From Paludibacteraceae bacterium (lineage in GTDB: Bacteria > Bacteroidota > Bacteroidia > Bacteroidales > Paludibacteraceae), in assembly GCA_017628395.1 (NCBI GenBank), contig JAGBZD010000063.1, forward strand, positions 1 through 47,288: a stretch of 47,288 nt of DNA, given 5' to 3'. Within the stretch, counting starts at the first letter, position 1. Every line of letters starts with the position of its first letter. The translations under genes were made by a program, and so were the position numbers. Of the stretch, positions 215-44,621 are shown piece after piece. The notes under the pieces are model-generated. The model was not told where the DNA came from, ran no database searches, and saw only the letters and a list, made by a program, of their open reading frames with translations.

Positions 215-250
215 AAATTTTAATAAATAAAATGATTATTTTCGCTATTT

Positions 251-294: not shown

Positions 295-337
295 AAATGT
301 GTTGCGGAGGAAAGCAAAAGAAAAATGTTAATTCTTG

Positions 338-2329
338 TTAAAGAATATGGTATTGAACGAAAGCCTCGATAGCCTCGTATTCAGCCAAACCGAGGTCAGA
401 GTACATCTTAGCAGTGTCGTGGTTGCGGTCCTCAGCGCGTTGCCAGAACAGACGCTCGTCGTCGCCCAAGAATGGAGCGGACTCCATTTGGCTCGCGTGA
501 CGAAGGATGGCGTTACGCTTAGAGCGAAGCTCCTCTGGTGACATTGGCACAGCCATCTCTACGAGGTCGAGTTCCCACTCCATCCATGCACCGCGGTACA
601 TCCATATGCGGCAGTCTTTCAACCACTCATCCCATGCAGCGGTGTGCTTCAACTCGTCCAAGGCAGCCAATACAGCGTCAAGACATACACGGTGTGTACC
701 GTGAGGGTCGGCGAGGTCACCGGCAGCAAAGATTTGTTGTGGTTTAACCTCCTCGAGAAGAGCCTTTACGATATCCACATCGGCTTGAGAGAGAGGACCT
801 TTCTTGATGGTACCTGTCTCATAGAATGGCAAGTTGAGGAAGTGGATGTTCTCGGTTGGGAGACCCATGTAGCGGCATGCTGCAGTAGCCTCGCCACGAC
901 GGATGAGCGCCTTGAGGTTGAGAATCTCGCGGGTGTCGTTGTCGCCGACTTTCTCGTTCTTGAAGAAGTGCATGTACTCGTCGTACTTCTTCTCAATCAC
1001 TTCATCGCCATGGATAAGCATTTGTTTGTACCCCTTCATGAAGTCCATGAAGCGTACTACCTCCTCGTCGCAAACGGCGATACAACCACTGGTCTCGTAT
1101 GCTACATGCACATTGTGACCTTGGTTGATGAGGCGTTGGAAAGTACCACCCATTGAGATGACATCATCGTCTGGGTGAGGAGAGAAGATTACGATATCTT
1201 TTGGGAATGGATTTGCGCGCTCAGGGCGATTGGTGTCGTCTGCATTTGGCTTGCCGCCAGGCCAACCAGTGATAGTGTGTTGCAGGTCATTGAAAACCTT
1301 GATATTGCACTTGTATGCGGATTCGTACTTGGTGATGAGCTCGCTGAGTCCGTAGTCGTTATAGTCCTTGTTGGTGAGTTTGAGAATCGGCTTCTTTGTT
1401 TCCTCGCAAAGCCATACTACGGCGCGGCGAACAAGTTGGTCGGTCCACTCGCAGTTGGTCACTTTCCAAGGGTGATTGATGCGGGTGAGCTTACCTGCAG
1501 CGTCGAGGTCAATCACGAACGAAGCGTTCTTGTGGAGTTGCAAGAATGATGCGGGGCATGCGGCGTTAGCCACTTCCTCAATCGCTTGTTTGACGATGCC
1601 CGCTTTGTGCTGACCGAACGCGAGGAGGATAACCTCTTTGGCTTGGAGCATGGTGTCGATACCCAATGTAATGGCGCATGTAGGCACTTGTGTCACATTG
1701 CCAAACAGCGATTTGGCGTCCACGCGTGAATTGTCGTCCATGATCACGAGGCGGGTAGATGAATTAGGCTGTGTGCCTGGCTCATTCATGGCGATGTTAC
1801 CCCATTGACCAATACCCAATACTTGGATATCAATACCCCCTGCTTCTATGATAGCCTTCTCGTATTCTTCGCAGAAAGTGAATACGGTTTCTCTTGGCAA
1901 GTCGCCAGGGAAAGTGTGTATGTTCTCAGGGAGAATATCAATATGGTCAAGCAGTTGGCTTTGGATTTGTGCCATGCTACCCAGATTCTTGTCTGCGAGT
2001 GGATAGAACTCATATGAACCGAATACGACTACGGTCTTAAAACTTAATCCTTCCTCTTTGTGCAGGCGAACGAGTTCCGTAAAGAGGTCGCGCATAGAGC
2101 GACCTGACGCCAATGAGAGAACGGTTTTCTGTCCGTTTTCAGCGCGGCGGGTAATCAGTTTGGCAATACGAGCTGCTACAGCAGCAATACCCTCTTGTGG
2201 TTTTTCCACGATAGTTGTGTTGACATGTTCCATGCGGGTAACGCGTGATTGCTCGTAAGCGTCCGCAGGGCGGTACAATTTCTCTTCGATTTTGCTAAGA
2301 GAAATCAGTTGGCTAAGATTATTTCTCAT
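338..2329 (-). CDS. nagB: Glucosamine-6-phosphate deaminase-like / PIG-L (LmbE) deacetylase fusion
   Basis: A 663-residue cytosolic two-domain protein. Residues ~35-300 have the NagB/6-phosphogluconolactonase fold, including LSLASGRS near 71 and GIGQWGNIAMNEPG near 173-186. Residues ~375-640 are a PIG-L/LmbE domain with the metal-binding HPDDD at 385-389 and a late DPHGTH motif. In E. coli NagB the catalytic residues are Asp72, Asp141, His143 and Glu148. Here the matching positions read Tyr106, Trp176, Asn178 and Glu183, so only the Glu survives. From memory, other Bacteroidales fusions carry similar changes, so this may be a family trait. Likely role: the last steps of amino-sugar catabolism (deacetylation and/or deamination of GlcNAc-6-P), but deaminase activity is not certain. 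Divergent from the kinase-murQ-susC operon, which supports a joint role. Confidence 0.85.
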   Translation of the reverse strand: MRNNLSQLISLSKIEEKLYRPADAYEQSRVTRMEHVNTTIVEKPQEGIAAVAARIAKLITRRAENGQKTVLSLASGRSMRDLFTELVRLHKEEGLSFKTVVVFGSYEFYPLADKNLGSMAQIQSQLLDHIDILPENIHTFPGDLPRETVFTFCEEYEKAIIEAGGIDIQVLGIGQWGNIAMNEPGTQPNSSTRLVIMDDNSRVDAKSLFGNVTQVPTCAITLGIDTMLQAKEVILLAFGQHKAGIVKQAIEEVANAACPASFLQLHKNASFVIDLDAAGKLTRINHPWKVTNCEWTDQLVRRAVVWLCEETKKPILKLTNKDYNDYGLSELITKYESAYKCNIKVFNDLQHTITGWPGGKPNADDTNRPERANPFPKDIVIFSPHPDDDVISMGGTFQRLINQGHNVHVAYETSGCIAVCDEEVVRFMDFMKGYKQMLIHGDEVIEKKYDEYMHFFKNEKVGDNDTREILNLKALIRRGEATAACRYMGLPTENIHFLNLPFYETGTIKKGPLSQADVDIVKALLEEVKPQQIFAAGDLADPHGTHRVCLDAVLAALDELKHTAAWDEWLKDCRIWMYRGAWMEWELDLVEMAVPMSPEELRSKRNAILRHASQMESAPFLGDDERLFWQRAEDRNHDTAKMYSDLGLAEYEAIEAFVQYHIL

Positions 2330-2346
2330 GATTTTTTATATATTGT

Positions 2347-2374
2347 ATTTTCAATTTTCAGTTTTCAGCTTTCA
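2347..2374 (-). repeat. Four 7-bp leader repeats (TGAAANN) upstream of the nagB-like gene
   Basis: Read on the minus strand, the leader carries TGAAAGC, TGAAAAC, TGAAAAT, TGAAAAT in tandem, about 18 nt before the start codon. It lies in the 5' UTR downstream of the promoter at 2404-2435. It may help translation initiation in a group that does not rely on Shine-Dalgarno pairing; that is inference. Confidence 0.6.
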
Positions 2375-2403
2375 CGGCACAACAATCCACAATAAATCGT
2401 GTG

Positions 2404-2435
2404 CAAAGTTACATTATTTTGTATATTCCCGCAAA
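2404..2435 (-). promoter_or_regulatory. Bacteroidota promoter for the nagB-like gene
   Basis: On the minus strand: -33 TTTGC at 2435-2431, a 19-bp spacer, and -7 TAACTTTG at 2411-2404. This matches the Bacteroidota TTTG/TAnnTTTG consensus. It leaves a leader of about 70 nt before the ATG at 2329. Confidence 0.8.
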
Positions 2436-2471
2436 CGATTTTGTTACTTTTTTTGAAAAATGCGTTTTTTA

Positions 2472-2487
2472 TATGTTGTACAACATA
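2472..2487. promoter_or_regulatory. Perfect 16-bp palindrome, candidate operator
   Basis: TATGTTGTACAACATA is a perfect palindrome located between the two divergent promoters. It is 16 bp upstream of the kinase -33 box and 36 bp upstream of the nagB-like -33 box. The position fits a dimeric regulator controlling both arms of the locus. I do not see another copy in the window and cannot name the regulator family. Confidence 0.55.
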
Positions 2488-2503
2488 AAACGGGGGTGTA
2501 CGC

Positions 2504-2534
2504 TTGCGCGCGTAAAAAAAAAGTAGTACCTTTG
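2504..2534 (+). promoter_or_regulatory. Bacteroidota promoter for the kinase-murQ-sus operon
   Basis: -33 TTG at 2504-2506, a 20-bp spacer, and -7 TACCTTTG at 2527-2534. The leader to the kinase ATG at 2617 is about 75-80 nt. No other good promoter is seen before the terminator at 19024, so this may drive the operon down to the 1315-residue protein gene. Confidence 0.8.
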
Positions 2535-2616
2535 TGGGCTACTTGTGGTGTGGTGTGCATTTTTTTGCTGTTGCGCCACAATTGAAAAAGAAATAATACA
2601 TAAAAAAACAACAGAT

Positions 2617-3474
2617 ATGATTTTAATAGCAGATTCAGGTTCTACCAAGACTCATTGGTGTTTGATGGCGGCTAACGGCCATTGCGAGGAGTTTTTTACG
2701 GATGGTATCAATCCTTTTCAACAAACTTCGGATGCAATTAAGAATAGTGTAAATAACCAGCTTCTCCCTCAGATGGCTCATTTGATGTGGGCTGGTAGTG
2801 TGAGCCATATTTTCTTCTATGGTGCGGGTTGTACGCCTGAGAAGATACCTGTAGTAGAGTATGCTTTGGAGGCGATTTTTAAGTCCGCTAAGATTGAGGT
2901 GTACTCTGATATGGTTGGTGCTGCATGTGGATTGTTGGGCGCTGAGAGAGGTGTGGCATGTATCTTGGGTACAGGTGCTAACTCTTGCCTATGGAATGGC
3001 AAAGAGATTGAGAAGAATGTTCCAGCTCTTGGTTTTATCCTTGGTGATGAGGGTAGTGGTGCTGTGCTTGGCAAACGCCTTGTGGCTGACCTATTGAAGA
3101 ACCAGTTGAGTGATGAACTGAAGGAGAAATTCTTGACACAATATGGTATTACTGCTGCGGATATTATTGAGAATGTTTATCGCAAGCCTTTCCCTAATCG
3201 TTATTTGGCTTCATTGAGTAAGTTCTGCTCTGAGAATATGGACAATCCTTTGATTGCGCAACTCGTTTACGATCACTTCGATTATTTTGCAAAGCGTATT
3301 TTGCCACAATATCCTGCGTTGCCAGTTGGCTTTATTGGTTCAATTGCTTATTACTACCAAGATGTGTTGAAGAAAGTGTTGGCAGATAACGGCTTCCAAG
3401 TGGGTAAGATTCTTCAAGGTCCTATGGAGGGTTTGAAGGAGTACCATAAGAAGGATATTGTTCCTACAATGTAA
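2617..3474 (+). CDS. N-acetylglucosamine/N-acetylmuramic acid kinase, BadF/BadG family
   Basis: A 285-residue cytosolic sugar kinase of the actin-like ATPase (ASKHA) superfamily. The N-terminus MILIADSGSTKTHW is the phosphate-1 loop; GTGANSCLWNG and GFILGDEGSGAVLG are the phosphate-2/adenosine regions typical of GlcNAc kinases. An in-frame upstream ATG at 2545 would add 24 residues in front of the phosphate loop that do not fit the family, so 2617 is preferred. It likely phosphorylates MurNAc and/or GlcNAc at O6. MurQ, encoded next, uses MurNAc-6-phosphate, so the context favours MurNAc, as for MurK of Clostridium and Tannerella. Exact sugar preference cannot be read from the sequence. Confidence 0.82.
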   Translation: MILIADSGSTKTHWCLMAANGHCEEFFTDGINPFQQTSDAIKNSVNNQLLPQMAHLMWAGSVSHIFFYGAGCTPEKIPVVEYALEAIFKSAKIEVYSDMVGAACGLLGAERGVACILGTGANSCLWNGKEIEKNVPALGFILGDEGSGAVLGKRLVADLLKNQLSDELKEKFLTQYGITAADIIENVYRKPFPNRYLASLSKFCSENMDNPLIAQLVYDHFDYFAKRILPQYPALPVGFIGSIAYYYQDVLKKVLADNGFQVGKILQGPMEGLKEYHKKDIVPTM

Positions 3475-3501
3475 AATCAAATGCCTATCGTTCTCTGATC
3501 A

Positions 3502-3534
3502 ATTACGGGTTCATGACGGGTTTATGACGGGTTT
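3502..3534. repeat. Tandem 11-bp repeat, three units
   Basis: ATTACGGGTTC, ATGACGGGTTT and ATGACGGGTTT follow each other between the kinase and murQ. A degenerate fourth unit begins ATACCG. The spacing matches the 11-bp arrays at 251, 19090 and 32909, but the unit sequence is different. Confidence 0.75.
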
Positions 3535-3583
3535 ATACCGCAGGGTCCGGGAAGCGTAGGTGAAACAAAATAGTACAAATATC

Positions 3584-4408
3584 ATGGCTTTTACAAAAGT
3601 TACAGAACAAAGTTCATTGCACGATAATCTTGACCAAAAGTCTGTTGGTCAGTTACTGGTTGAGATGAATGAGGAAGACCAAAAGGTGGCTTTGGCTGTC
3701 AAGGAGTGTATTCCTCAAATCGAGAAATTGGTAGAAGGTATTGTTGAGCGCATGCAGAAAGGTGGTCGTATCTTCTATATGGGTGCTGGTACCAGTGGTC
3801 GTCTTGGCGTGTTGGATGCCAGCGAGATTCCTCCTACTTTTGGTATGCCACCTTCGTTTGTGATTGGTCTTATCGCGGGTGGTGACCACGCGTTGCGTAA
3901 TCCTGTGGAGAATGCGGAGGATGATCCAGAGAAGTCTTGGAAGGAACTCCTTGACCACAATATCACTACGCTTGATACGGTTGTTGGTATCGCGGCTTCG
4001 GGTACTACACCTTATGTAATAGGCGCGCTCGAGCGCGCACGCGAGTTCGGCTGTCTGACCGCTTCTGTTTCTTGCAATCCTGGTTCGCCTGTAGGTCAAG
4101 TGGCTGAGATTGCTATTGAGCCATTGGTGGGTCCTGAGTTTGTAACAGGTTCAACTCGTTTGAAATCAGGTACGGCACAGAAACTGGTGTGCAATATGAT
4201 TACCACCATCACAATGATTAAAATGGGTCGTGTGAAGGGTAACAAGATGGTGAATATGCAACTTTCTAACAAGAAGCTTGTGGATCGTGGTACGCGTATG
4301 CTCGTGGAAGAGTTGGGATTGGAGTATGACAAGGCGAAAGACTTGCTTTTGCTCCATGGTAGTGTGAAGAAAGCGATGGACGCTTATCGCGCTGCTAATC
4401 AAAATTAA
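3584..4408 (+). CDS. murQ: N-acetylmuramic acid 6-phosphate etherase
   Basis: 274 residues, SIS-domain enzyme that removes the D-lactyl ether of MurNAc-6-phosphate to give GlcNAc-6-phosphate and D-lactate in the cytosol. The diagnostic run GAGTSGRLGVLDASEIPPTF is present; Glu81 is the likely acid/base residue (Glu83 in E. coli). Later family blocks are GIAASGTTPYVIGAL, GPEFVTGSTRLKSGTAQK and MQLSNKKLVDRGTRM. Length is normal. A GTG eight codons upstream is in frame, but family proteins begin at M-x-F-x-KVTEQ, so ATG 3584 is used. It follows the kinase and precedes susC by only 35 bp with no promoter between. This places MurNAc metabolism in the same transcript as the importer and is the strongest clue to the locus substrate. 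Confidence 0.96.
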   Translation: MAFTKVTEQSSLHDNLDQKSVGQLLVEMNEEDQKVALAVKECIPQIEKLVEGIVERMQKGGRIFYMGAGTSGRLGVLDASEIPPTFGMPPSFVIGLIAGGDHALRNPVENAEDDPEKSWKELLDHNITTLDTVVGIAASGTTPYVIGALERAREFGCLTASVSCNPGSPVGQVAEIAIEPLVGPEFVTGSTRLKSGTAQKLVCNMITTITMIKMGRVKGNKMVNMQLSNKKLVDRGTRMLVEELGLEYDKAKDLLLLHGSVKKAMDAYRAANQN

Positions 4409-4443
4409 AAAAAACAGTAAAAACAATAAACAATCTAATCTTT

Positions 4444-7400
4444 ATGAAGAAACTACTCTTTGTGCTCGCATGCTCGCTGTTGTCAGTTGCTATGATGGCA
4501 AGTGTCACGGTGAGTGGTGTGGTTATTTCTACGGAGGATGGTTTGCCTGTTATTGGTGCTTCTGTCCTTGAAAAAGGTACATCAAACGGTACGATTACCG
4601 ATTTTGATGGTATGTATGAATTGACGGTACAAGACGGCGCAGTGCTTGTGGTGAGTTATGTTGGTTTGGCAACTCAAGAGTTGAAAGTCACTGGTCCTCA
4701 GTTGGATGTCCGTCTTAGTGCTGATGCTATTGCCATGGAAGAAGTGGTGGTTACTGCTATGGGTGTGGTTCAAGAGAAGAAACGCTTGAATTTCGCTGTG
4801 CAGAATATCGGTGGTGATGCTTTGAATGAGAGTCAAAACGCCAACTTCGTCAATTCGCTCCAAGGTAAAATCGCGGGTGTGTCTGTGACTAATGCTGGTG
4901 GTTCGCCTAACTCAGGTAGCCAAATTATTATTCGTGGTATCTCTTCTGTGAATACAAGTCAGAGTAACGAGCCTCTCTTCATCCTTGACGGTGTGGCTAT
5001 CTCTGGTGGTGCTACCAATGCTGCGGATATCAACCCTAACGACATTGAGAACATCACAGTCCTCAAGGGTGCTGCTGCTGCCGCTTTGTATGGTCAAGAT
5101 GCTGCCAATGGTGTCATCATGATTACTACTAAACAAGGTGAAGCGGGTAAGATTAAAGTGCAAGCTAATGGTAGTTGGCAATGGGATACACCTGTTCGCT
5201 TGCCTGAACTCCAACAAACCTATGGTCCTGGTGCACAAGGATTCTACAAAGAGAAGTCTGGTGGTGGTTGGGGACCTGTGTTGAGTAAGGATGCAACGAT
5301 TTATGACAACCTTGGCAATTTCTTCAAGACTGGTTTCTACCAAAAGTATGATTTCTCTGTAACGGGCGGTAGCGAGAAGTTCAATGCCTATGCTTCAGCT
5401 AACTGGTCTAATGCGGAAGGTGTTATTCCTGAGGATTATAGGACGCGTTTTGGTGCTCTTATCAAGGCTTCGTTCACACCTGCTAAATGGGTTACATTCC
5501 AAATGGGTATCAATATCACCGATGTGAAATCTCGTTCAACAGGTGGCGTAAGTACTGTGTATGGCTGGCCTATCAACGATGATATTACCGATTATAAGCA
5601 TGCCAACGGCTTGCCACGCTATCGCTATTGGGCTGATGGTAATAAGACAGGTTCGCCTATGAGTCCGCTTTATGGTATCTATGAAGATGATGGCATTAGC
5701 AAGAGAACGCGTAATGTGATTAATGGTAGTGTGACCTTCAAGCCAGTGAAGAACTTGCAAATCGTAGGTCGTGTGAGCTACGATATTAGCCATTCTTCAT
5801 CGGATAGCTATACCGTTCCTCGTTGGGATGATAGCAATGTAGTTCCATCTGTGGTGGCACCTACGGGTGAGCGTCCTGCTGATTTTAAGGAAGCAGCTCC
5901 TGGCACATATCCTGATTGGGAGAAATACGATGAGTACCAACGCTGGCTTCTCTCTACATCTGCAGACGAGCAATTCAGCTTGCTCGGTTTGACTGGTGGT
6001 TATATGAATCCTGAAAACTATCTTTTGACCAGCGATGATATTGAGAATTTGGGTAAATCTTCTTCATTGGGCGCATACTATGCTTCCATGAGCCGTAGCC
6101 AACTCTTCACAGCTGGTGTTAATGCAAGTTATAAGATTGAGTTGCCAAAGGACTTCTCTATTGATATTATGGCAGGTACCGAACTTAAGATGTCGCAAGG
6201 CTTCTCTATGGGTAATGAGGGTTATGACTTCATCATTCCTGGTACATATAGCCTTTCCAATACGAATCGTGATCATTTGGAACTCTCTGATCGTACAGCG
6301 AGCCATAGTGGTATCAACCGTTTCGGTTACTTTGGTGAGGTTCGCGCTGACTACAAGGGCTTAGCTTCGCTTTCTGTTACTGGTCGTTGGGACTGGTCTT
6401 CTACTATCAATAACAACCCATTCTTCTATCCTTCTGTAACGGGTGGTGTTATTCTTTCTGAATTGATCCCTGGTTTGAACGAAACCAAGGACAATTGGTT
6501 CTCTTATTGGAAGATTCGCGGTAACTACGCTGTGGTAGGTAAGGATGCTCCTGCATACTTGTATGACCGTCGTTTCAAACAATGGGCTTCTTTCCCAGAC
6601 TCTGGTTATGGTATTGATGCTGGTATGTCATCTGCTTCGCGCAACTTGCAACCTGAGATGTCTTACTCTTGGGAGGTAGGTATGGACCTCAAACTCTTTG
6701 ACAACAAGACCCGTCTGGATGTAGCATACTATTCTACTACAGTTAGAAACCAAATCGTAACAGTGCGTGTATCGCCTTCTTCAGGTTATATCCTTCAAAC
6801 CCGTAACGAGGGTGACATCCGCAACCAAGGTGTGGAATTCACTTTTGAGCAAGATGTTATCAAACGCAAGAATGTCAATTGGACATTGGGTCTCAACTTC
6901 GGTCTCAACCGTGGTACTTTGGTGTACCTCCCAGACCAATTGCCTGAGATTACGAATGGTCAGTATGGTGATATCTTCCCTTCTGCGTATGTGGGCGGAT
7001 CTACTACTGCTTTGACGGGTAAAGATTACCAACGCAATGCAGCAGGACAAGTGCTTGTGGACGAGAATGGTTATCCTAGGATAAATCCTAATAAGAATGT
7101 GCTCATTGGTAACCGTGAGGCGAAGTTCCAAGCGGGTCTTACCAGTAGTATGAATATCTACGGTCTGCAATTCTCATTCCTCTTTGACGGACGCCTTGGC
7201 GGTGATGTTGTGAATGTTACAGGTCGTAACCTCATCTCCAATGGTAATCACAAGATGCTTGAGCAATACCGTGGTCGTCAAGTAGTGTTCGATGGTGTAT
7301 ATGAGACTACTGACGAGGCTGGTAATACCGTATATTTGCCTAATACCAAGCCTATTACGCTGAATCAAACCACTATCATCAACTACTTCTACAATGTATC

Positions 7401-7671: not shown

Positions 7672-7692
7672 TCGAATATAATATTAAGGAAT

Positions 7693-9540: not shown

Positions 9541-9569
9541 TTTATAAATAAGCAAAAATATAGACTAAT

Positions 9570-10628: not shown

Positions 10629-10657
10629 TATACATAACTTTGATAATACACAAGAAT

Positions 10658-14913: not shown

Positions 14914-15056
14914 ATTAAATAAGATTTTTTGCGTCATGGGCGCAAAGGAGATATAAACAAAATAACAATTTTTACTTAACGCAACCGAGGTCCACCGTGG
15001 ACGAGTTCCACAACGGATGAGGAAGCAATTTATTAACCAAAAAAACATTTAATTGT

Positions 15057-18000
15057 ATGAAGAAATTATTTTCTTTCATTTCAGTATTTGCTCTTGCAGC
15101 AATACTTGGATTCTCTACAGTTTCTGCGCAAACAACGGTTGCAACTGTTGAGAAACTTTGGAGCAAGACCGTCACTGAATTGGGTGTCACTATTGCTGAC
15201 ACTCGCCAAGGTGCTGGCTCTAACGGTACAGTTTACTTGCTCAACAAGGCTAATCAATCACTTGTAGCTATTTCAGCTGAAGGTCAAGACACTGTTTGTG
15301 TTGGTCCTCTTACTGTAGCTGAAGGTGTAACGGCTGCTTTGGATGGTACAGCCTATGCAATGGACGATGCAGGTAACTTTGTAATGGAGGGTACTTTCCC
15401 AAACACTCCTTCACACCTCGTTCTCCGCAAGGCTGATGGTTCTGTAGTTAAAGACATCGCTATCACTGGTCTTGCTCGTACGGACTTTATCAATGCTACT
15501 GGCGATGTATTCTCTGCTGAGGGTGGTTATGTTTTCGTTTACGGAAACTCAGCTAACCTCTTGGTTTACACAATCGCTAATGGTGAGTTGGTAGGTGAGG
15601 CTAAAGAGATTGCAGGCTTGGCGAATGGTGGTAACAACTATGTTCTCGCTGGTGATGCTAACACACAAATCGTTCACCACCGTACATCTCAAGCTGGTTG
15701 GATGAAGGTTGAGAATGGTGTTGAGACTCTTATCGAGGGCATGGAAGGATTTAAGAACACAACCATGGGTGGTGACATTATCACTTTGGCTGGTAAAGAG
15801 TTCTATATTTACCCAACTGGTACAACCAACTACAACTCTGAGTTCCTTGTTCGCAATATGACCGATGGTCTTCTTGTTTCTGATAAGGACGGTGCGACTA
15901 CTTTCTTTGCTAACACTACTTCTACTGCAAGTTCTACTATTACAGCTCTTTGGATTAATGCAAATAAGATTGATGACAACAATGCATACATCCATGTTTA
16001 CAATGCAGACGGTGTAGCAGTATTTAAACTCAGTGTTGTTGTAGCTGCTTCTGTTACTCTTAATGTAAACGATGCTGCTATGGGTAGTGTTGAGGGTGCT
16101 GGTGACTATGCTGTAGGTGGCAATGCTACCGTTAAGGCTATCCCTGCTCTCGGTCACTCTTTCGTAGCTTGGAAAAATGGTGACGAAGTTGTTTCTACAG
16201 ACGCTGAATACACTTTCGCTGTAACTGGTGATGTTACTTTGACTGCTGAATTCCAAGCAGAGGAGAACAAGACTTTGACTTTGGCTGTTAATGATCCTGC
16301 TATGGGTAATATTGCTCTTCCAGAAGGTATCGTATTGGGTGAGAACTCTGTAGCTTATGGTACAGTTCTTACTTTGACCGCTGTTCCTGCTGAGGGTATC
16401 ACTTTCTCTGGCTGGTACAATGGCGACGCATTGTATGCTAAGGACTATACTATCGAGGTTGCTGTAACAGCAGATCTCGCTCTTACCGCTAAATTTACAA
16501 GCGTATTGGTAGTTGAGTATGTACTCAATGGTGGTATCACCAACGACTTTGGCTGGACAAGCAAGGGTGCTGTAGCTCTTGAATTGCAAGAGGCTTACAA
16601 TGCTGCTTATAGTACAACTAAGGCTTGGGCTAAAGAAGAGAATGGCTACATCTACTACAACTTAGGTGGAGAGTGGGTTCGCGAAGACCAAGTGCCTGTA
16701 GGTACTGCATGTACTGTTGCTGGATTTATCCAAAATGTTACTTATAACACTACTGACAACCTCAAAAACTTGATTGAGGGTAATGACAAATATGCGTGGT
16801 TGAACGAAATCATCGTTGCTGCTCGTACTGCTGCTGGCTTGGCTGCAACTCCAACTGATTTGTCAGAGGCTGTTTATCGTAAAGAGTTGTCAGCATTCTT
16901 CCTCTGCGCTCCAGCTGAGACTTCTTGGCCTGCTGCTGCTTCTTACGAGGTAGTTGGTACTTTTGATTCTTTCAAGAATATATGGAAACATGGTTTTGCT
17001 AACCCAACTGAAATCGTTGCTGAGGTTACTTTGAATGCTCCATACCACCCAGAACTTACTTTCTACGGTTGGTATGCAACTGAGGACTTCTCTGGTGAGA
17101 AAGTGACTACTCTTAGCCCACAATCTGTAATTCCTGGCGGAAAACTCTATGCTAAAATAGCTGAATATATTCCAACTATTGAAGAAGTATTGGCTATGGA
17201 AGAGGGTACTGAAACTAAAGTTTCTGGTGTAGTTAACTGGGCACGCGGTGGCAATGTATTCATCCAAGATGCTACTGGTGGTTTCCTCGTTTACAACAAG
17301 GACTTGGCGGCTACTGTAGGTACCAAGATTATTGTTAAGGGTACTCGTGGTTCTTTCAATGGCAAACCTCAATTGAGCAATGCTGTTATTGAATCTACTG
17401 AGAAGGGCGAATTGTTCCCACCAGTAGAAACTACATTGTCTGCTTTATTGGCTGACACTACATCGTTGAAATACTTTGGTCAACGCGTACAAGTATTGGG
17501 CGTATATGTAGCTGAGTATGATAAATATGGTAATCTTTGGGTTGCTGATAAGGATGGCTCTAACAAGATCCAATGCTACTACATGACTCCAGATCAAACC
17601 AAATTCCCTGTAGGTAAGAAGATTTCTCTCACAGCAGTAGCTTCAAGCAACAAGGGCGTCTTCCAATTCGAAGGTGATATCGCTGGCTTGGAACTTGTGA
17701 TTATTGGCAAGAAAGATGCATTTGATTATCCTGTACGCGGTGAGAATGGTCAATACACCCTTACCAACAATTGGGTAATTTCTAACATGGAGGGTAACTA
17801 TGCTGCCAATAAACCAGGTGCTAACGACTATGTTCGTGGTATGGCTGCTAAGGATGGTATCATGTATTTCATCAATCGTGAGGATTCTGCTATTGTTCGC
17901 ATCGATGGTGCTACTGGTGAAATGCTCAATCCTATTAAGTTGAAAGGCGAACACCTCTTTGAGAAAGCTACTGTTAATGAAGAAACTGGCGAAACAACAT

Positions 18001-19004
18001 GGTCTGCTGGTACTACTCTTCCTTTCAATGATATTAAATTTGACTGGGCTGGTAACTGCGTGATTGGTGCTTGTATGACTGGTGCTACCGTTTGCCAAAC
18101 ATTCTTCATCTATGTAGTAGATCTTGAGACTGGTGAATGTACAAAACTTATCGAGGATGTTCTTTGGGAGAACCCAGGTTTGAACGAGGTTAAGTTCCGT
18201 TTCGACGCATTTGGTGTTGCTGGTGATGTTACCAAGAATGGTGTTATTATGGCAGCTGATGCTAACGGTTCTTGGAATGTTTATCGTTGGTTGGTAACTG
18301 ACGGTGTAGCTGGCGAAGGTGAGCAAGTTCCTGTACTGCTTGATCCATCCGTTGACCAATCACTCTTTATCAACGCAGCTGGTTACGGTACAGCTCCTCA
18401 AATCTTCCCACAAGACGAAGAGGGTAACTTGTTCTATGTGGATGGCTTCAATACATTGCCAATGTTGTTCTATGGTAACCCAGAAGAAGGTGCTGTATTG
18501 GTAGATGACTTCATCTATGTACCTACAGGTGTAAATGTATGGAACAACCCAGGTGATACCATCGCTATGAATGCTAACTTCAACGGTCTTGTTGAGTTCC
18601 AAGTTGGTGAGGAATACTTCCTCTTGATGGCTGCTACTAACAACGAGCATGCTAAGGTTAAGTCTTCTTACGCTCTCTACAAGTTTGCTGATGACGGTCG
18701 TCTCTTCGAGGGTATGGAGCCACTTTGGTACTTCCCTAAGAATGGTCTTGGAACCACTACCGTAGGTTGCCGTACCGCAGTACCTTCTGTTGATGTTATC
18801 GACGACAATACTGCAGTTCTTTACCTCTACACCACCAACAATGGTTATGCAGCTTATACGCTCAAAACCAATGGCGAAAAGGCTCCAACAAGTCTTGAGG
18901 AACTTGAGGTTCAACTCGATGTTCAAAAGGTTGTTGAGAACGGTCAAGTATTCATCATGAAGGGTGACAAGAAATTCAACATCCTTGGTGCTGAAGTAAA
19001 ATAA
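15057..19004 (+). CDS. Large secreted mosaic protein with InlB-like repeats and C-terminal tag
   Basis: 1315 residues with a signal peptide ending near VSAQ. No catalytic family is recognised. Residues ~25-330 look like a beta-propeller (GSNGTVYLLNKANQSLVAIS). Residues ~331-480 hold two divergent InlB B-type repeats (VNDAAMGSVEGAGDY and NDPAMGNIALPEG, each with the F-x-x-W core). Residues ~500-700 have Listeria-Bacteroides-like FYGWYAT segments. Residues ~711-880 are an OB-fold-like module (TKVSGVVNWARGGNVFIQDA, then IIVKGTRGSFNGKPQL) and ~892-1278 a second propeller. It ends with ENGQVFIMKGDKKFNILG. Likely a surface binding or adhesive protein for the locus substrate. It is the last gene before a terminator, 143 bp after GHL10; the gap shows no clear promoter. 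Confidence 0.85.
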   Translation: MKKLFSFISVFALAAILGFSTVSAQTTVATVEKLWSKTVTELGVTIADTRQGAGSNGTVYLLNKANQSLVAISAEGQDTVCVGPLTVAEGVTAALDGTAYAMDDAGNFVMEGTFPNTPSHLVLRKADGSVVKDIAITGLARTDFINATGDVFSAEGGYVFVYGNSANLLVYTIANGELVGEAKEIAGLANGGNNYVLAGDANTQIVHHRTSQAGWMKVENGVETLIEGMEGFKNTTMGGDIITLAGKEFYIYPTGTTNYNSEFLVRNMTDGLLVSDKDGATTFFANTTSTASSTITALWINANKIDDNNAYIHVYNADGVAVFKLSVVVAASVTLNVNDAAMGSVEGAGDYAVGGNATVKAIPALGHSFVAWKNGDEVVSTDAEYTFAVTGDVTLTAEFQAEENKTLTLAVNDPAMGNIALPEGIVLGENSVAYGTVLTLTAVPAEGITFSGWYNGDALYAKDYTIEVAVTADLALTAKFTSVLVVEYVLNGGITNDFGWTSKGAVALELQEAYNAAYSTTKAWAKEENGYIYYNLGGEWVREDQVPVGTACTVAGFIQNVTYNTTDNLKNLIEGNDKYAWLNEIIVAARTAAGLAATPTDLSEAVYRKELSAFFLCAPAETSWPAAASYEVVGTFDSFKNIWKHGFANPTEIVAEVTLNAPYHPELTFYGWYATEDFSGEKVTTLSPQSVIPGGKLYAKIAEYIPTIEEVLAMEEGTETKVSGVVNWARGGNVFIQDATGGFLVYNKDLAATVGTKIIVKGTRGSFNGKPQLSNAVIESTEKGELFPPVETTLSALLADTTSLKYFGQRVQVLGVYVAEYDKYGNLWVADKDGSNKIQCYYMTPDQTKFPVGKKISLTAVASSNKGVFQFEGDIAGLELVIIGKKDAFDYPVRGENGQYTLTNNWVISNMEGNYAANKPGANDYVRGMAAKDGIMYFINREDSAIVRIDGATGEMLNPIKLKGEHLFEKATVNEETGETTWSAGTTLPFNDIKFDWAGNCVIGACMTGATVCQTFFIYVVDLETGECTKLIEDVLWENPGLNEVKFRFDAFGVAGDVTKNGVIMAADANGSWNVYRWLVTDGVAGEGEQVPVLLDPSVDQSLFINAAGYGTAPQIFPQDEEGNLFYVDGFNTLPMLFYGNPEEGAVLVDDFIYVPTGVNVWNNPGDTIAMNANFNGLVEFQVGEEYFLLMAATNNEHAKVKSSYALYKFADDGRLFEGMEPLWYFPKNGLGTTTVGCRTAVPSVDVIDDNTAVLYLYTTNNGYAAYTLKTNGEKAPTSLEELEVQLDVQKVVENGQVFIMKGDKKFNILGAEVK

Positions 19005-19023
19005 ATCTTATCAATACTATTTA

Positions 19024-19056
19024 GAGTGTACCCCTCGGGGTGCACTCTTTTTTTTG
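19024..19056 (+). terminator. Rho-independent terminator
   Basis: GAGTGTACCCC pairs with GGGTGCACTC around a small loop (one G-U pair), followed by nine T residues. It closes the first transcription unit of the cell-wall locus after the 1315-residue protein gene. Confidence 0.9.
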
Positions 19057-19089
19057 TATCCGGCGGGGGGCTTTTAGGGAAACTACAGG

Positions 19090-19122
19090 GTGGTAACCGA
19101 GTGGTAACGGAGTGGTAACGAG
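19090..19122. repeat. Tandem 11-bp repeat, three units
   Basis: GTGGTAACCGA, GTGGTAACGGA and GTGGTAACGAG in tandem between a terminator and the next promoter. Same period as the arrays at 251, 3502 and 32909 but with another unit. Confidence 0.78.
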
Positions 19123-19186
19123 AAAAATCAGTGAAAAACAAAAAAGCCATTAGGTATAATATTTTTCATAAAAAAATCACAAACAC

Positions 19187-19217
19187 TTGCATAATCCCCA
19201 AACAAGTAGTAACTTTG
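19187..19217 (+). promoter_or_regulatory. Bacteroidota promoter for the phosphodiester glycosidase-amidase pair
   Basis: -33 TTG at 19187-19189 (in the context CTTGCATA), 20-bp spacer, -7 TAACTTTG at 19210-19217. It lies about 47 bp before the ATG at 19265. With the terminator at 19024 it makes the glycosidase and amidase a separate unit. Confidence 0.82.
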
Positions 19218-19264
19218 CAGGCAAATTACAATTATTGTATATTTACCTGTAAATCATTTATACC

Positions 19265-21592
19265 ATGAAGAAAATTTTACTGTCTATTTTCGCTCTATGC
19301 GTTAGTCTTTTTTCTTTTTCCAATATCTCGTTGAATAACATCGAGTACACCATTGACACCTTGTCCATGTTCCCTGTAGGACCTGGCACAACTTACTATG
19401 AGTTGCGCTTTTTGCGTGCGGATAATGGCAAAGGGCGTTTGGATGCTTTCTTGCTCGCAATAGATACGCGTAATCCATATGTCCATGTAGAACAAGTCTT
19501 GGGTACTGGTAAAATCACAGGTACAGAAACGCCTTCTAAGATGGCTATTCGTAGCACGACAGATAGCAATATCTTCTTTGCAGGCGCCAATGGTGACTTC
19601 TTTACTACATTGGATGATCAATCTACCTCTGCGTATTACGAAGTGGGGATACCTGTTAGTACAACGATTGTGAATAGTGAGTATGCATATACGCCTGTTG
19701 CCAATCGTACTGAACGCCGCTTGGGTGCTATTGATACGGACGGAAAAGGTATCACAGCTATTCAGCATGCCATTTCGATGAAACTGCAGTTGGCAGATAC
19801 TACTTTGGATATTGCTCATGCCAATTATGTGCGCCGAGAAAATGAGTTGGTTATATACAACTACCATAATGGCGCTACTACAGCTACTAATGCCTATGGA
19901 ACAGAAGTACAAATCGAATTACTCGACGGCGAGCAATGGCAGACGACTGGCACTATGAGAGCCAAAGTCATTAAAGTGGAGCAGCAAGTGGGGTCCATGC
20001 CATTGGATAAAGATCATGCTGTCCTATCGGGTCACGGTACGATGGCTGATGAATTGAGCAAACTCAATGTGGGCGATGAATTGACACTCGACTTTGAGAT
20101 TCGTTTTGATGGAGATGTGGTTAATATTGCTCAAGCAATAGGTTCGGATAATTACAATCAAATCCTTCTCAATGGCAAGGTGGTACAAGATGGCTTCTGG
20201 AATGAGTTGCACCCCCGTACAGGTTTTGGCACATCGCTGACCCGTGATACAGTATATATGTTGGTAGTGGATGGTCGTGGCGTAAGTGCTGGTTGTACCA
20301 CGAAAGTCTTGGGCGAGATACTTCAGCACTATGGCGCATACAACGCTGTAAACTGGGACGGTGGAGGTAGTTCCTGCGTTTATGTTCGCCCTTTGGGACC
20401 TATGAATAATGGTTCTGATGGTCAAGAACGCGCTTGTGGTAATGGTATGTTTGCCGTGGCAGATGTGCCAGAAGTGGATAATACCATTGTTACTATCGCA
20501 CCATACATGCCTAACTATTACCTTCCTCGCTATGGCGTAGCGGCACCACAATTTTTGGGATATAATAAATATGGAGTCTTGGTGGAAACCAATGTGACTG
20601 GTGTGCAACTGTCTTGTGCGCCTGAAGTGGGCGAGATCTTAGCCGATGGGCGTTTCTTGGCTTCGGGAGAGAATGGTGGCACGCTGACTGCAACATGGGG
20701 AGAGGTGACCACAGAACTTGATGTGCGTATCATTACCTCTGCACCTATCGCAATACGACTGGATTCAGTCCTCTGCGATGCATTGCACCCATACAAGGTG
20801 GAAGTGCAAGGTACTGTAGGAAATGCTACCGTAGAAGTCCTTGCCGATGCGCTGGACTGGATTAGTGCGGATCCTACTATTGCTTCTGTGAATGAGGCAG
20901 GCGAAGTGGTTGGACACAAAAATGGCAGAGTACTCATCGTGGGTACATTAGGCGATTTTTCGGATAGTATTATTGTGAATGTGGAAGTGGCAGAGGCAAA
21001 TAAGCAGGTATGGGATGATTTTCGCAATGCTGCTTCTTGGGAAGTGAAAGGTTCGCCTACTTCTTTCAAGCCATCCCTTTCTGTACCAGAAGATATAGAC
21101 GCACCTGTGAACTTGCTATTTACATATGCTTCTGGACGCAACCCATTTGTGCAATTATCCAAAGACTCACTATTGTATTCCTTGCCAGAGAAAATCTTGG
21201 TTCCAATGACTACCAATGCAACCTTTGAGAAGGTAATTATTATGATTCGTGCCAATAATTCGAATACAACCGACCAAATAACCTTCTTGAATCCTGCTGT
21301 AGGGGAAGAGAATATCTTCGAGATTGATGTGAAGGAACGATTTGGTGCGGATGCCGCTATTTATCCATTGCGTTTCCTTTCGCTAAAGATGATTCCTACT
21401 TCTGCTACCCCGAAAGGCGAATGTTATGTGACCTTGCCTGGTATTATCGAGGTATATAGCGATAACTCAGGTGTGGGTACAGGCATTGAAAATAATATCA
21501 ATACTACTGCCCCCTCTAAATTCATTGAGAGTGGTCAATTGTTTATCCAACGCAACGGACAAACCTACACCATCCTTGGCACCCTCAAATAA
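19265..21592 (+). CDS. Secreted NAGPA/DUF2233 phosphodiester glycosidase with C-terminal tag
   Basis: 775 residues. Signal peptide ~1-19. Residues ~30-400 form the NAGPA (DUF2233) domain of N-acetylglucosamine-1-phosphodiester alpha-N-acetylglucosaminidases. Visible motifs are FAGANGDFF (N109-G110-D111), VVDGRGVSAGCTTKVLGEIL near 333-352 and NWDGGGSS at 363-370, all family hallmarks. An Ig-like unit follows, then a BIG_2-like domain (~495-580, ISADPTIASVNEAGEVVGHK), a jelly-roll-like carbohydrate-binding region (~585-740) and the tag ESGQLFIQRNGQTYTILG. Enzymes of this family release GlcNAc from a phosphodiester. In this cell-wall context a candidate target is the GlcNAc-1-phosphate linkage of wall teichoic acid to MurNAc O6, or another phosphate-linked decoration. 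The stop overlaps an ATG of the amidase frame. Confidence 0.9.
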   Translation: MKKILLSIFALCVSLFSFSNISLNNIEYTIDTLSMFPVGPGTTYYELRFLRADNGKGRLDAFLLAIDTRNPYVHVEQVLGTGKITGTETPSKMAIRSTTDSNIFFAGANGDFFTTLDDQSTSAYYEVGIPVSTTIVNSEYAYTPVANRTERRLGAIDTDGKGITAIQHAISMKLQLADTTLDIAHANYVRRENELVIYNYHNGATTATNAYGTEVQIELLDGEQWQTTGTMRAKVIKVEQQVGSMPLDKDHAVLSGHGTMADELSKLNVGDELTLDFEIRFDGDVVNIAQAIGSDNYNQILLNGKVVQDGFWNELHPRTGFGTSLTRDTVYMLVVDGRGVSAGCTTKVLGEILQHYGAYNAVNWDGGGSSCVYVRPLGPMNNGSDGQERACGNGMFAVADVPEVDNTIVTIAPYMPNYYLPRYGVAAPQFLGYNKYGVLVETNVTGVQLSCAPEVGEILADGRFLASGENGGTLTATWGEVTTELDVRIITSAPIAIRLDSVLCDALHPYKVEVQGTVGNATVEVLADALDWISADPTIASVNEAGEVVGHKNGRVLIVGTLGDFSDSIIVNVEVAEANKQVWDDFRNAASWEVKGSPTSFKPSLSVPEDIDAPVNLLFTYASGRNPFVQLSKDSLLYSLPEKILVPMTTNATFEKVIIMIRANNSNTTDQITFLNPAVGEENIFEIDVKERFGADAAIYPLRFLSLKMIPTSATPKGECYVTLPGIIEVYSDNSGVGTGIENNINTTAPSKFIESGQLFIQRNGQTYTILGTLK

Positions 21593-21630
21593 TGTCCTTA
21601 TCCGATAACTCATTTTTTAACTCAATATTT

Positions 21631-24627
21631 ATGAAAAAACTCTTTACTTTTGTAGCAGCACTCTGCGTTTGCTTCTCAATGAACGCAGATATTCGCGTGT
21701 TGAGTGACACACGAATAGGCGAAGGTTTCTTCCCACGCTTTGTGGATGCAGAAACAGTAACTTATCTCGCACACGGGCAAGCAAGCTATTTCCCTCAGAA
21801 CGAAGAGGCAGCACTCCGCGTGGATAACGAGAATCTTGACCTTAATCTCTATCGCAATGGCGAGAAAGTGGTTCTCAAACCTCATGGCGATGCCAATTAC
21901 ATTTGGTCTTCGCTATCTCCTGATCAAACAATGATTCTCTTTAATACCAAGTATGGTACGGCTATCTGTGACCTCAATGGTAATGAAATCATCAACTTGG
22001 GTCAGGATTTTGATGCTCCTGTTTGGTATGGCAATGATTATGTGGTGGGTATGGATGATAACCATGATGGTTATTATAATATCGAATCTTCCATCATGAT
22101 TGCTTCGGTAGATGGCAAAATAGTGCAACGATTGACCGATCCCAAGGGCTTTGGTATGTATCCAAATGTAGATGTCCAATCGGGTCGTATCGTATATAAC
22201 ACAGAAGATGGCGATATTCGTCTGCTGCAATTGAATCTAACTGAAGAGCCAATTCGCAAAACGCTGCCTCGCATGGTGAAGATGGTTGATGCTACTTTGC
22301 TCGACAATATGAAGCGTCAGGCAAAACGAGCAACTTCTAATGATCCTGCCGATTATAAGATTTATATCAACCCAGGTCATGGCGGTTATGATTCGGATGA
22401 CCGCAGAATGGGATTATATCCAGTTTTTGTGGACGGTATTGTTAACTCAGCGGGCGGATATACACAAGAGCAAACATTCTGGGAGAGTGTTTCTAACTTG
22501 GATAAAGGTATGCGTCTTGATACCATGTTGCGTAAGCTCGGATTCCAAACCAAGATGTCGCGTATCCGCAATACTACTGCTGACGACCGTAGCCTCTCTG
22601 GTATTTCGGCAGAGGCAACCCAATGGAAGGCAGATTTTATGCTATCTATCCACTCCAATGCAGGTAATCCTTCTAACTATATCCTTCACTTACACTCGGG
22701 TATTACCCCAGGTGACCCTTATGGCTTGAATGGTTACCCAGAGAAAGTGCCAGAATGGATTTGCAACGAAGCACGCGCAATCACCACATTGATGGGTTCA
22801 CATCAGTACTCCAATCAAGTCAGCTGCTGGTCACGCGAACCAAATATCGCAGGTGATAAGACTTTTGCACGCACCATCATGGGATGGAGTAATGGCTATG
22901 GTGTGATGCGTAATTTGGGTGTTCCTGGTACTATTTCTGAAGGTATGATGCACGACTATCTCCCTGAGACCTATCGCTTGATGAATATCGACTACAAACG
23001 CCAAGAGTCATTCCAATTTGCAAAAACTTTCTATGAGTATTTCTGCGAAGGTCAGTTGCCATATGGCGCTATTGGTGGTAAGATTCACGATGTTTATCAA
23101 AAGCAAGAGTTCCCTGATTACAAACCTCGCAAGGGTACACGCGATGAGTATCGTCCAATCAATCGCGGTGTAGTAGAACTTTGGCAAAACGATCAACTCT
23201 TGCAAACATATGTTACCGATACACTATACAATGGTGTATATTATTTCTGGAACCTCCAACCCGGTACTTACACCGTGAAGGCAAAACCAGAAGGATATTA
23301 TCCACAAGAGCAGACTTTAGAGGTTAAGAATAACGAGATTTCGTATGGCATTTTTGCTCTCTCTATGGCAAGAAATACACCTCCAGAGGTACTTGATTAT
23401 AGTCCAAAGGTGGGCCCTGATGAACAAGTGCTGGTATCTACTACCGTAACCATTTCTTTCAACTGGGATATGGAGATAGAGGCTACTGCAGCTGCGTTGG
23501 AGATTACACCAGCCATAGAGGGTACTGTTACTTTTGAAGATGACAACCACACCTTGCGCTTTACACCCGCTACACGATTTGAGCCCGGTGTAGAATATAC
23601 CGTGACATTGGGTACGGGAGCTTGCCACCCAGATGCTACCTATGATAATCATTTGCAAGAACCATTTACTTTCAAATTTACTACCAGCAACCGAGGCGCT
23701 GTAGGTGTAGTACAAACTTATCCTATTGATGGTTCAACCAATGTGCCTGTTAACCCCGCTTTCATTGCCATCTTTGATGCTAAATTGGCGAATACCTCTA
23801 ATAAATATCTCAAGGTGTATGATGCCGAAGGTAAAAATATTAGTCCTGCTACTCGTAACATTAAACTCAATGGCGTAGCTCCTGCTCCTTATGGTTCAGC
23901 TCGTTTTGAGTTGAAATTGGCTCCGAACTCGCAATATACATTTGTTTTGGAATCAGCTCTGAAAGATGTAGATAATGTGTTGCTCAATGAGGATGTAACC
24001 ATTACTTTCACGACAGGTAATGAAATAGAGCCAGATGTGGCAGTTTATGACAATCTGGATACGCTCTTCTTTGAGGGCGATAAGGAAAACTCGCTGGGCG
24101 TGACTTCTGTACTAACAGCGCGAAATACTACTTCTAAATACGAGGGATTGGCATCCAATAAGTTCTCATATACATTTGCCGACCTCAATGCAGAAGCTAT
24201 CTATGTGGCAGATGATGTGGCTGCAATCAAGGGTAATAGTCAATCCGTATTGGGTATGCATGTCAACTCTGACTATTCATTCAATACATTGTATGCGAAA
24301 TGGGCAGCGGAAGGCGATATCCAATACACCAAGATTTGTGACCTTGATTATGCGGGTTGGTTGTACCAAGAGGCGGATATGTCCACCTTGCCAGCAGGTG
24401 TGGATTATCAATTTATGGGCTTCAAACTGGTTCGACAAAATTCGTTCCTGTCAGAGAAGGGAGAATTTTCTATTGACCTCTTGCGCGTGAAGTATGTAAA
24501 TTCGCCTACTACCGATGTAGAGCAAGTGGCAACGCCTTCTGATTACAACAAGGTGATTGAGAATGGCTATCTATATATCTTGCTCAATGGTCATCGCTAT
24601 AATGCACAAGGCGCAACAATTCAATAA
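21631..24627 (+). CDS. Secreted N-acetylmuramoyl-L-alanine amidase (Amidase_3) with beta-propeller and C-terminal tag
   Basis: 998 residues from ATG 21631, which begins a clean signal peptide (MKKLFTFVAALCVCFSMNA); an in-frame ATG at 21592 overlapping the previous stop would add 13 residues before it. Residues ~20-225 look like a TolB-type propeller. Residues ~243-460 are the zinc amidase: His250 in INPGHGG, Glu285 in WESVSNLD, His341 in LSIHSNA and probable catalytic Glu437 in TISEGMM. Then come a CarboxypepD_reg-like unit (LQPGTYTVKAKPEGYYPQEQ), two Big_5-type Ig domains, a jelly-roll region and the tag ENGYLYILLNGHRYNAQG. It hydrolyses the MurNAc-L-Ala bond and strips stem peptides from peptidoglycan. 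Being a multidomain exoprotein, it is more likely a feeding enzyme than a division amidase; that part is inference. Confidence 0.93.
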   Translation: MKKLFTFVAALCVCFSMNADIRVLSDTRIGEGFFPRFVDAETVTYLAHGQASYFPQNEEAALRVDNENLDLNLYRNGEKVVLKPHGDANYIWSSLSPDQTMILFNTKYGTAICDLNGNEIINLGQDFDAPVWYGNDYVVGMDDNHDGYYNIESSIMIASVDGKIVQRLTDPKGFGMYPNVDVQSGRIVYNTEDGDIRLLQLNLTEEPIRKTLPRMVKMVDATLLDNMKRQAKRATSNDPADYKIYINPGHGGYDSDDRRMGLYPVFVDGIVNSAGGYTQEQTFWESVSNLDKGMRLDTMLRKLGFQTKMSRIRNTTADDRSLSGISAEATQWKADFMLSIHSNAGNPSNYILHLHSGITPGDPYGLNGYPEKVPEWICNEARAITTLMGSHQYSNQVSCWSREPNIAGDKTFARTIMGWSNGYGVMRNLGVPGTISEGMMHDYLPETYRLMNIDYKRQESFQFAKTFYEYFCEGQLPYGAIGGKIHDVYQKQEFPDYKPRKGTRDEYRPINRGVVELWQNDQLLQTYVTDTLYNGVYYFWNLQPGTYTVKAKPEGYYPQEQTLEVKNNEISYGIFALSMARNTPPEVLDYSPKVGPDEQVLVSTTVTISFNWDMEIEATAAALEITPAIEGTVTFEDDNHTLRFTPATRFEPGVEYTVTLGTGACHPDATYDNHLQEPFTFKFTTSNRGAVGVVQTYPIDGSTNVPVNPAFIAIFDAKLANTSNKYLKVYDAEGKNISPATRNIKLNGVAPAPYGSARFELKLAPNSQYTFVLESALKDVDNVLLNEDVTITFTTGNEIEPDVAVYDNLDTLFFEGDKENSLGVTSVLTARNTTSKYEGLASNKFSYTFADLNAEAIYVADDVAAIKGNSQSVLGMHVNSDYSFNTLYAKWAAEGDIQYTKICDLDYAGWLYQEADMSTLPAGVDYQFMGFKLVRQNSFLSEKGEFSIDLLRVKYVNSPTTDVEQVATPSDYNKVIENGYLYILLNGHRYNAQGATIQ

Positions 24628-34583: not shown

Positions 34584-34615
34584 GTAAATCGCAAAACCTC
34601 CAATTGTAAATCAAA

Positions 34616-44608: not shown

Positions 44609-44621
44609 AGTCGTTTAGAAT

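Follow-up and report, generated by a model that had tools for sequence, protein, structure and literature searches.

What does a Sus-type locus import when the genes around its transporter pair appear to be those of cell-wall breakdown and N-acetylmuramic acid (MurNAc) salvage? The question is raised by positions 338 to 24,627 of a contig of 47,288 nucleotides (contig JAGBZD010000063.1, our C52; "the window" below means this whole stretch of DNA) from a Paludibacteraceae bacterium whose genome assembly, GCA_017628395.1, comprises 2.41 Mb in 129 contigs and is 81% complete. We would put at roughly three chances in four the reading of these genes as a Sus-type utilisation locus directed at external peptidoglycan, and the original prediction, made from the letters of the DNA, that the locus dismantles foreign peptidoglycan and imports the products is supported by the comparisons below. 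Every gene named in that prediction lies at its expected place, including the NagB-like fusion which diverges from the plus-strand arm, except that the last pair is reversed, the NAGPA gene coming first and the amidase gene second:

338-2329, minus strand: NagB-like/PIG-L fusion, glucosamine-6-phosphate deaminase-like (NF002557, 983 bits against a cut-off of 384; PF02585 and PF01182 over cut-off)
2617-3474, plus strand: MurK-like amino-sugar kinase (open reading frame opens at 2545; likely start the ATG at 2617)
3560-4408, plus strand: murQ, MurNAc-6-phosphate etherase (TIGR00274, 317.9 against 302 bits; possible start the ATG at 3584)
4444-7671, plus strand: susC, TonB-linked outer-membrane transporter (TIGR04056, 599 against 368; TIGR04057 over cut-off)
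7693-9540, plus strand: susD-like surface lipoprotein (PF12771, 77.9 against 27; PF12741 over cut-off)
9570-10628, plus strand: lipoprotein 1, presumed surface glycan-binding protein of unmatched fold
10640-12388, plus strand: lipoprotein 2, with a PKD-like domain (PF18911 under cut-off)
12388-14913, plus strand: putative secreted GHL10 glycosidase or lytic transglycosylase (PF02638, 228 against 28 bits, E 2e-67)
15057-19004, plus strand: secreted mosaic protein with InlB B-repeats (PF18998 and PF09479 over cut-off)
19265-21592, plus strand: secreted NAGPA-family phosphodiester glycosidase (PF09992, 71 against 25 bits; PDB 3ohg, E 2.6e-9)
21592-24627, plus strand: secreted Amidase_3 protein with Big_5 and a C-terminal tail (PF01520, 35.7 against 27; PF13205 over cut-off)

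The adjacent susC and susD homologues place the locus among Sus-type loci, and the GHL10 domain supplies a glycan-cleaving enzyme, probably at the surface. Residues 21-380 of the GHL10 protein match Clostridioides difficile Cwp19 (PDB 5oq2, E 5.3e-74), the only solved relative found; E. coli DigH is, we assume, another member of this family. D191 and the motif F195-D196-D197-Y198-F199 are invariant in 53/53 distinct rows, and H263, E298, H354, and E450 in the Amidase_3 part of the amidase, for which there was no PDB match, are invariant in 22/22; only rows spanning 80% of the query were counted, some of which may be paralogues, and the roles we attach to the GHL10 acidic motif and the amidase residues are presumptive. 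The kinase (query from 2620) matches 8ow9, a "Putative novel MurNAc kinase", at E 2.4e-84 and 1zxo at E 5.8e-89, against about 4e-61 for N-acetylglucosamine (GlcNAc) kinases (8oqk, E 3.6e-61), and falls under the PF01869 cut-off (21.1 against 31.5); it is MurK-like, its predicted specificity coming from similarity. The MurK of Tannerella forsythia is reported to be a 6-kinase of stringent specificity (PMC5790795). Lipoproteins 1 and 2 were classed as such by eye from lipobox-like N-termini; lipoprotein 1 has no Pfam, NCBIfam, or PDB match, and a search of solved proteins with the lipoprotein 2 profile, A1, brings up PKD-type domains in 15 sequences (E <= 0.01). We dropped lipoprotein 2 as a candidate phylum-wide marker: A1 matched only its own genome among 395, a weak negative with at most three candidates per genome scored.

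A comparison of gene neighborhoods reveals substantial conservation. Fifty-seven loci were gathered by similarity to the window's SusD, so that all counts concern this SusD lineage, whose nearest members belong to metagenome genomes bearing the titles Paludibacteraceae or Bacteroidales, and many of these were obtained from the guts of herbivores; each count omits loci with a contig end too near, leaving 49 of the 57 for murQ, 50 for the lipoproteins, 46 for GHL10, 44 for the mosaic gene, and 41 for NAGPA. Specifically, i) of the 49 loci that extend 1 kb or more upstream of susC, 42 have murQ there, and of all 44 murQ-bearing loci, two of them with less than 1 kb upstream, 40 are co-directional, with a median gap to susC of 153.5 bp (L110 also carries murQ); ii) lipoproteins 1 and 2 each lie downstream of susD in 50/50 loci (3 kb downstream); iii) GHL10 is found in 46/46 loci with enough downstream DNA, the mosaic gene in 43/44 with 8 kb downstream, and NAGPA in 32/41 with 9.5 kb downstream; iv) the window murQ used as query (E <= 1e-30) has a single match in 39/40 genomes, and by manual reading lies no more than 10 kb upstream of susC in 35/40; and v) the amidase has a match in 39/40 genomes and, by hand count, lies downstream of susD on the same contig in 33/40, the seven outside this count being G161, G165, G168, G170, G171, G176, and G183, in four of which (G161, G165, G170, and G171) the locus is at or near a contig end. 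The neighborhood check proposed with the original prediction, co-occurrence of SusCD with murQ, GHL10, and Amidase_3, thus bears it out; the case named as contrary to it, homologous SusCD beside unrelated enzymes and without murQ, was not seen in this SusD lineage, where loci without an adjacent murQ retain the same enzymes. In a draw of genomes from the order, SusD at E <= 0.001 matched 74 of 149 genomes, but fell below 1e-50 only in its own genome and in G041, G109, G072, and G128; the remaining matches are weak and generic.

Where the enzymes act is suggested by their C-termini, which share a tail of about 34 residues with the consensus K..ENGQVYI.RNGVRYN.LG..V.:

14809-14910, plus strand: C-terminal sorting-like tail of GHL10 (profile match)
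18900-19001, plus strand: the same tail on the mosaic protein (profile match)
21488-21589, plus strand: the same tail on NAGPA (profile match)
24523-24624, plus strand: the same tail on the amidase (profile match)

Counting matches anywhere in a protein, the tail profile (E <= 0.01) has 46 matches in the window's own genome (four of these within the window itself); for two relatives the numbers are 41 and 39, and for three others 0; by a simple pattern over the 57 loci, the tail is present on 25/48 complete GHL10 and 24/41 complete mosaic proteins, and on 0/5 NAGPA open reading frames. This patchy distribution marks the tail as a lineage feature, imperfectly matched to the apparent loss of MurA discussed below. 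TIGR04183, the classical type A domain of the type IX secretion system (T9SS), was found on none of GHL10, mosaic, and NAGPA at E <= 0.001, nor on the amidase at E <= 0.1; of five orthologues from tail-less loci, four pass TIGR04183 and the fifth scores 18.7 against 23. Three tail-bearing genomes have 14, 18, and 20 TIGR04183 matches and three others 130, 52, and 65, in a search that also matched 2 of 14 controls; SprA is present in 15/15 genomes searched, over cut-off in the window's own, and in 0/14 controls. Because some orthologues carry TIGR04183 where the tail sits, and because SprA is present, we infer for the tail a role in type IX sorting, as a signal unmodelled in NCBIfam. The tails also bear on the possibility that the substrate is the wall of the cell itself, attacked in division or turnover, SusCD recapturing leaked fragments and MurK-MurQ closing the loop: MurQ and AmpG are recycling genes elsewhere, and E. 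coli DigH is reported to act on denuded septal glycan (PMC12288456), but four proteins with tails at the positions where some orthologues have T9SS domains, together with SprA, would point outside the cell if the tails function as we suppose, and we regard such self-recycling as unlikely.

Since shared ancestry explains much of the co-location, rearranged loci weigh more. In two Dysgonamonadaceae loci (L062 and L083) and one of Candidatus Symbiothrix (L066), murQ is on the opposite strand and an AmpG-like permease gene lies directly upstream of susC; all three permeases score under the TIGR00901 cut-off with AmpG as best named match, and for that of L062 the solved AmpG structure 8zgz is a match at E 1.2e-16. 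Upstream in L061 are an epimerase-like protein, whose best matches are the N-acetyl-D-Glu racemase DgcA and L-Ala-D/L-Glu epimerase, and an NlpC/P60 protein, with nagB-kinase-murQ and AmpG further along the contig; in L057, NamZ, an FAD (flavin adenine dinucleotide) oxidase with iron-sulfur domains, and a second GHL10 protein are encoded between murQ and susC. In Barnesiella (L086, L102, and L103) the amidases of the unit are followed on the same strand by a second kinase-like gene and three more genes, and then by a row encoding a glycosyltransferase, DUF4922, SpoIID/LytB, AmpG, NamZ, the FAD oxidase, a nine-helix membrane protein, MurK, and MurQ. In a Muribaculaceae genome a single row (L104 and L105) holds NAGPA, amidases, AmpG, NamZ, the kinase, and murQ; the SusD locus of this genome (L088) is on another contig.

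Trees were built from the 36 of 57 loci with all four genes, plus the window, the GHL10 tree by a quick method. The murQ genes of L073 and L074 fall inside the window's 13-row clade (support 100/99) and are nearly identical to the window's murQ, whereas their susD genes group with those of L076, L078, and L089 (100/100) in a distant clade, with which the quick GHL10 tree concurs. The simplest reading is that a SusCD-enzyme cassette was swapped at a fixed nagB-murK-murQ anchor; alternatively, the murQ side may have moved in L073 and L074. Rearrangement also bears on the suggestion that SusCD, GHL10, and NAGPA target some other GlcNAc-rich or phosphodiester-linked surface glycan, with murK-murQ-nagB only conserved neighbors. 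Searches on NAGPA listed no open-licence paper that gives it a wall role, GHL10 has a weak score against PgaB (18.1 against a cut-off of 321.9), and co-location within one clade may reflect shared ancestry; yet in the rearranged loci the wall genes beside this SusCD vary from one locus to the next, and amidase matches are present in nearly every genome, so we consider this suggestion quite unlikely. That the locus serves competition, the enzymes killing neighbors and uptake being secondary, is highly improbable: a surface-exported amidase and glycosidase could conceivably lyse cells, but SusCD, MurK, MurQ, and the NagB fusion are uptake and metabolism genes, and no toxin or immunity family was among the Pfam matches (the defence library was not scanned). 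As a separate observation, L044 (5589-6704), L046 (5646-6800), and L047 carry an extra gene between murQ and susC; that of L044, the only one scanned, encodes an SGNH-type esterase, perhaps a peptidoglycan O-acetylesterase.

The original prediction had pointed to a gap, no inner-membrane permease for the sugars and no exo-muramidase in the window. This holds for the window, but AmpG-like and NamZ genes are on another contig of the same genome (C117:1-14000, L107), where NAGPA, AmpG-like, SurA-like, FAD oxidase with iron-sulfur domains, and NamZ genes make up a second cell-wall locus; if the FAD oxidase is a D-lactate dehydrogenase, it would take the by-product of MurQ. AmpG family matches at E <= 1e-20 are present in 38/40 genomes, and NamZ, the type to which we assume T. 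forsythia YbbC belongs, is likewise present in 38/40 (E <= 1e-10).

MurA was not found (E <= 1e-30) in 31 of the 40 genomes, that of the window included; the same search matched 10 of 14 control genomes. Of the nine genomes with MurA, eight over cut-off and one as two partial pieces, four bear the title Paludibacter or Paludibacteraceae, two are bins of Bacteroidales or Bacteroidia, two are Dysgonamonadaceae, and one is the Barnesiella; the 31 without are titled Paludibacteraceae, Bacteroidales, and in one case Paludibacter, together with the Symbiothrix and Muribaculaceae genomes. Genome incompleteness could explain single absences, but hardly absence from so many related genomes. Because MurA was not found in these 31, many of the genomes may be MurNAc auxotrophs like T. 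forsythia; a catabolic-only reading of the locus is weakened on the same ground, and its purpose may be anabolic as much as catabolic.

Several observations weigh against a locus aimed at foreign peptidoglycan: i) NAGPA was not seen in 9/41 loci, in six of which a long mosaic gene fills the flank, with NAGPA further on in two of the six (L135 and L136); ii) murQ is on a different contig from SusCD in 4/40 genomes (L067, L075, L079, and L088), while the Barnesiella murQ shares the contig of SusCD but lies about 39 kb downstream; iii) the amidase has no match in G168, one of the 40 genomes; iv) AmpG matches exceed the family cut-off in 0/40 genomes, and the L061 epimerase and its relatives also score under cut-offs; v) no regulator is among the 11 gene models of 338-24627 by Pfam and NCBIfam matches, and many accepted Sus-type loci have no adjacent regulator; vi) murK-murQ-nagB could be a general recycling set merely located there; and vii) AnmK was found in 0/40 genomes at E <= 1e-10 (controls matched 5/14), a difficulty if GHL10 is a lytic transglycosylase and so leaves anhydro-MurNAc ends.

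The last point led us to set aside the idea that GHL10 is purely a lytic transglycosylase whose products go to AnmK. A cell that has no AnmK should make poor use of anhydro-ended products, so that most of the sugar taken up would be expected to carry normal reducing ends, and we expect GHL10 to act mainly by hydrolysis, on glycan already free of peptide, in keeping with the order originally proposed, amidase first. C. difficile Cwp19, described as a lytic transglycosylase, is reported to have given anhydro-muropeptides, with reducing ends where the terminal MurNAc was without peptide (PMC6016235), while T. forsythia reportedly shows some growth on anhydro-MurNAc, which speaks against our AnmK argument, and takes up mainly the peptide-free sugar backbone (PMC7670621). 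Moreover, Cwp19 is there an autolysin with CWB2 anchors, whereas the window GHL10 bears a sorting-like tail, belongs to a SusCD locus, and has no AnmK found for anhydro ends; E. coli DigH is described as a cell-separation enzyme that degrades peptide-free glycan strands (PMC12288456).

Taking the locus as directed at foreign peptidoglycan, we would derive activities, their order, location, and ligand from gene content and conservation, from the AmpG-like, NamZ, and SprA genes, and from the failure to find MurA and AnmK. The amidase, GHL10, NAGPA, and mosaic proteins would cross the outer membrane to the outside, probably through the type IX system; there the amidase would strip stem peptides off the foreign wall, and GHL10 would then cut the bared glycan; SusD and lipoproteins 1 and 2 would bind the pieces for import by SusC; NamZ and other enzymes would release disaccharide or MurNAc in the periplasm; an AmpG-like or MurT-like permease would carry the sugar into the cytoplasm; MurK would phosphorylate MurNAc, MurQ would remove D-lactate, and the NagB-like fusion would pass the sugar onward; and where a genome has no MurA, some of the MurNAc would instead enter wall synthesis directly.

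How does this compare with known systems? The T. forsythia operon Tanf_08345-08385 is described as having the order gtf-gtf-lytB-ampG-ybbC-murT-murK-murQ (PMC5388701). On that description the likeness extends to AmpG, YbbC, LytB, MurK, and MurQ, the Barnesiella row having nearly the same order; the lack of MurA in T. forsythia may be a further likeness, MurA not having been found in the 31 genomes above; the window combines MurK with MurQ, and its genome adds AmpG (under the family cut-off) and NamZ. The operon as there described is without SusC/SusD, GHL10, NAGPA, and secreted amidase, whereas the present locus includes an outer-membrane step and, as predicted, extracellular enzymes. Classical Sus-type loci share the SusC/SusD pair, further lipoproteins, a glycan-cleaving enzyme, and sugar-metabolism genes, but differ from the present locus in its inferred wall target, its amidase and etherase, the lack of a visible regulator, and enzymes that by eye are tail-bearing and non-lipoprotein. 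We found no SusC/SusD locus devoted to peptidoglycan among the titles and abstract openings listed from the open-licence literature (in one search, 25 of 347 papers), nor, among the titles listed, any MurNAc-auxotrophic relative other than T. forsythia; nor did the accessible parts of the cited sources yield an account of muropeptide passage across the outer membrane in T. forsythia. What appears to be new here is the target of this Sus-type locus and its union with a salvage route of the Tannerella type.

With the outer-membrane step and the extracellular and salvage enzymes in one conserved locus, the outer-membrane step becomes directly testable. If the loss of MurA is true, a lineage of many herbivore guts depends on its neighbors' walls, a strong ecological dependency, and the pool of immune-active wall fragments would also be affected. 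A more far-reaching scenario can be put forward tentatively, and we regard it as doubtful: that this mostly herbivore-gut Paludibacteraceae lineage lost MurA and consists of obligate MurNAc auxotrophs, which build their walls from neighbors' walls by way of the SusCD locus; that NAGPA detaches wall teichoic acid, leaving MurNAc-6-phosphate, the substrate of MurQ, and making this a Gram-positive-wall utilisation system; and that export uses a type IX tail unmodelled in NCBIfam. The linkage of wall teichoic acid, GlcNAc-1-phosphate-6-MurNAc, is the same kind of bond as the GlcNAc-1-phosphate-6-mannose cut by human NAGPA; no link of NAGPA to teichoic acid was found among the papers listed from the open-licence literature.

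The transcription signals of the locus center on TAnnTTTG, the Bacteroidota-type -7 promoter motif:

2404-2411, minus strand, and 2527-2534, plus strand (before the kinase): divergent promoter-like TAnnTTTG motifs (consensus match only)
10635-10642, plus strand: TAnnTTTG spanning the start of lipoprotein 2 (consensus match)
19023-19048, plus strand: terminator-like hairpin with T run, strongest of the scan (pattern match only)
19210-19217, plus strand: TAnnTTTG before NAGPA (consensus match)
24730-24737, plus strand: TAnnTTTG before secA (consensus match)

As predicted, murQ ends 35 bp before susC with no promoter motif between, TAnnTTTG being absent from the gap; a minus-strand match at 4400-4407 lies within the end of murQ. 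One-base overlaps join lipoprotein 2 to GHL10 and NAGPA to the amidase. The hairpin together with the motif before NAGPA suggests a second transcription unit, so that two units (kinase to mosaic, and NAGPA-amidase) are more likely than one, although signals of this kind, read from a consensus, occur in all about as often as chance would give: TAnnTTTG occurs 50 times in the whole window against 36.4 +/- 5.7 expected (3 of 100 shuffles reach 50), and over positions 1-20000 neither the sigma-70 scan (37 against 39.5) nor the terminator scan (15 against 14.8) rises above chance. An Rfam scan gave nothing beyond one tRNA, and a PHROGs scan was uninformative.

After the amidase come secA and lgt, as also in L108, L129, L130, L132, L134, and L136, so that the right-hand border is syntenic too. 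Further along the window, 33876-35856 holds genes like ExbB and ExbD and, after them, a 278-residue open reading frame that found no match and is perhaps TonB; two DUF3078 proteins are encoded near secA and the ExbBD genes (29066-30475 and 36421-37500); and RND efflux pump genes (AcrB-type, HlyD-type, and OEP) lie on the minus strand at 41423-47088 near a tRNA-Asp.

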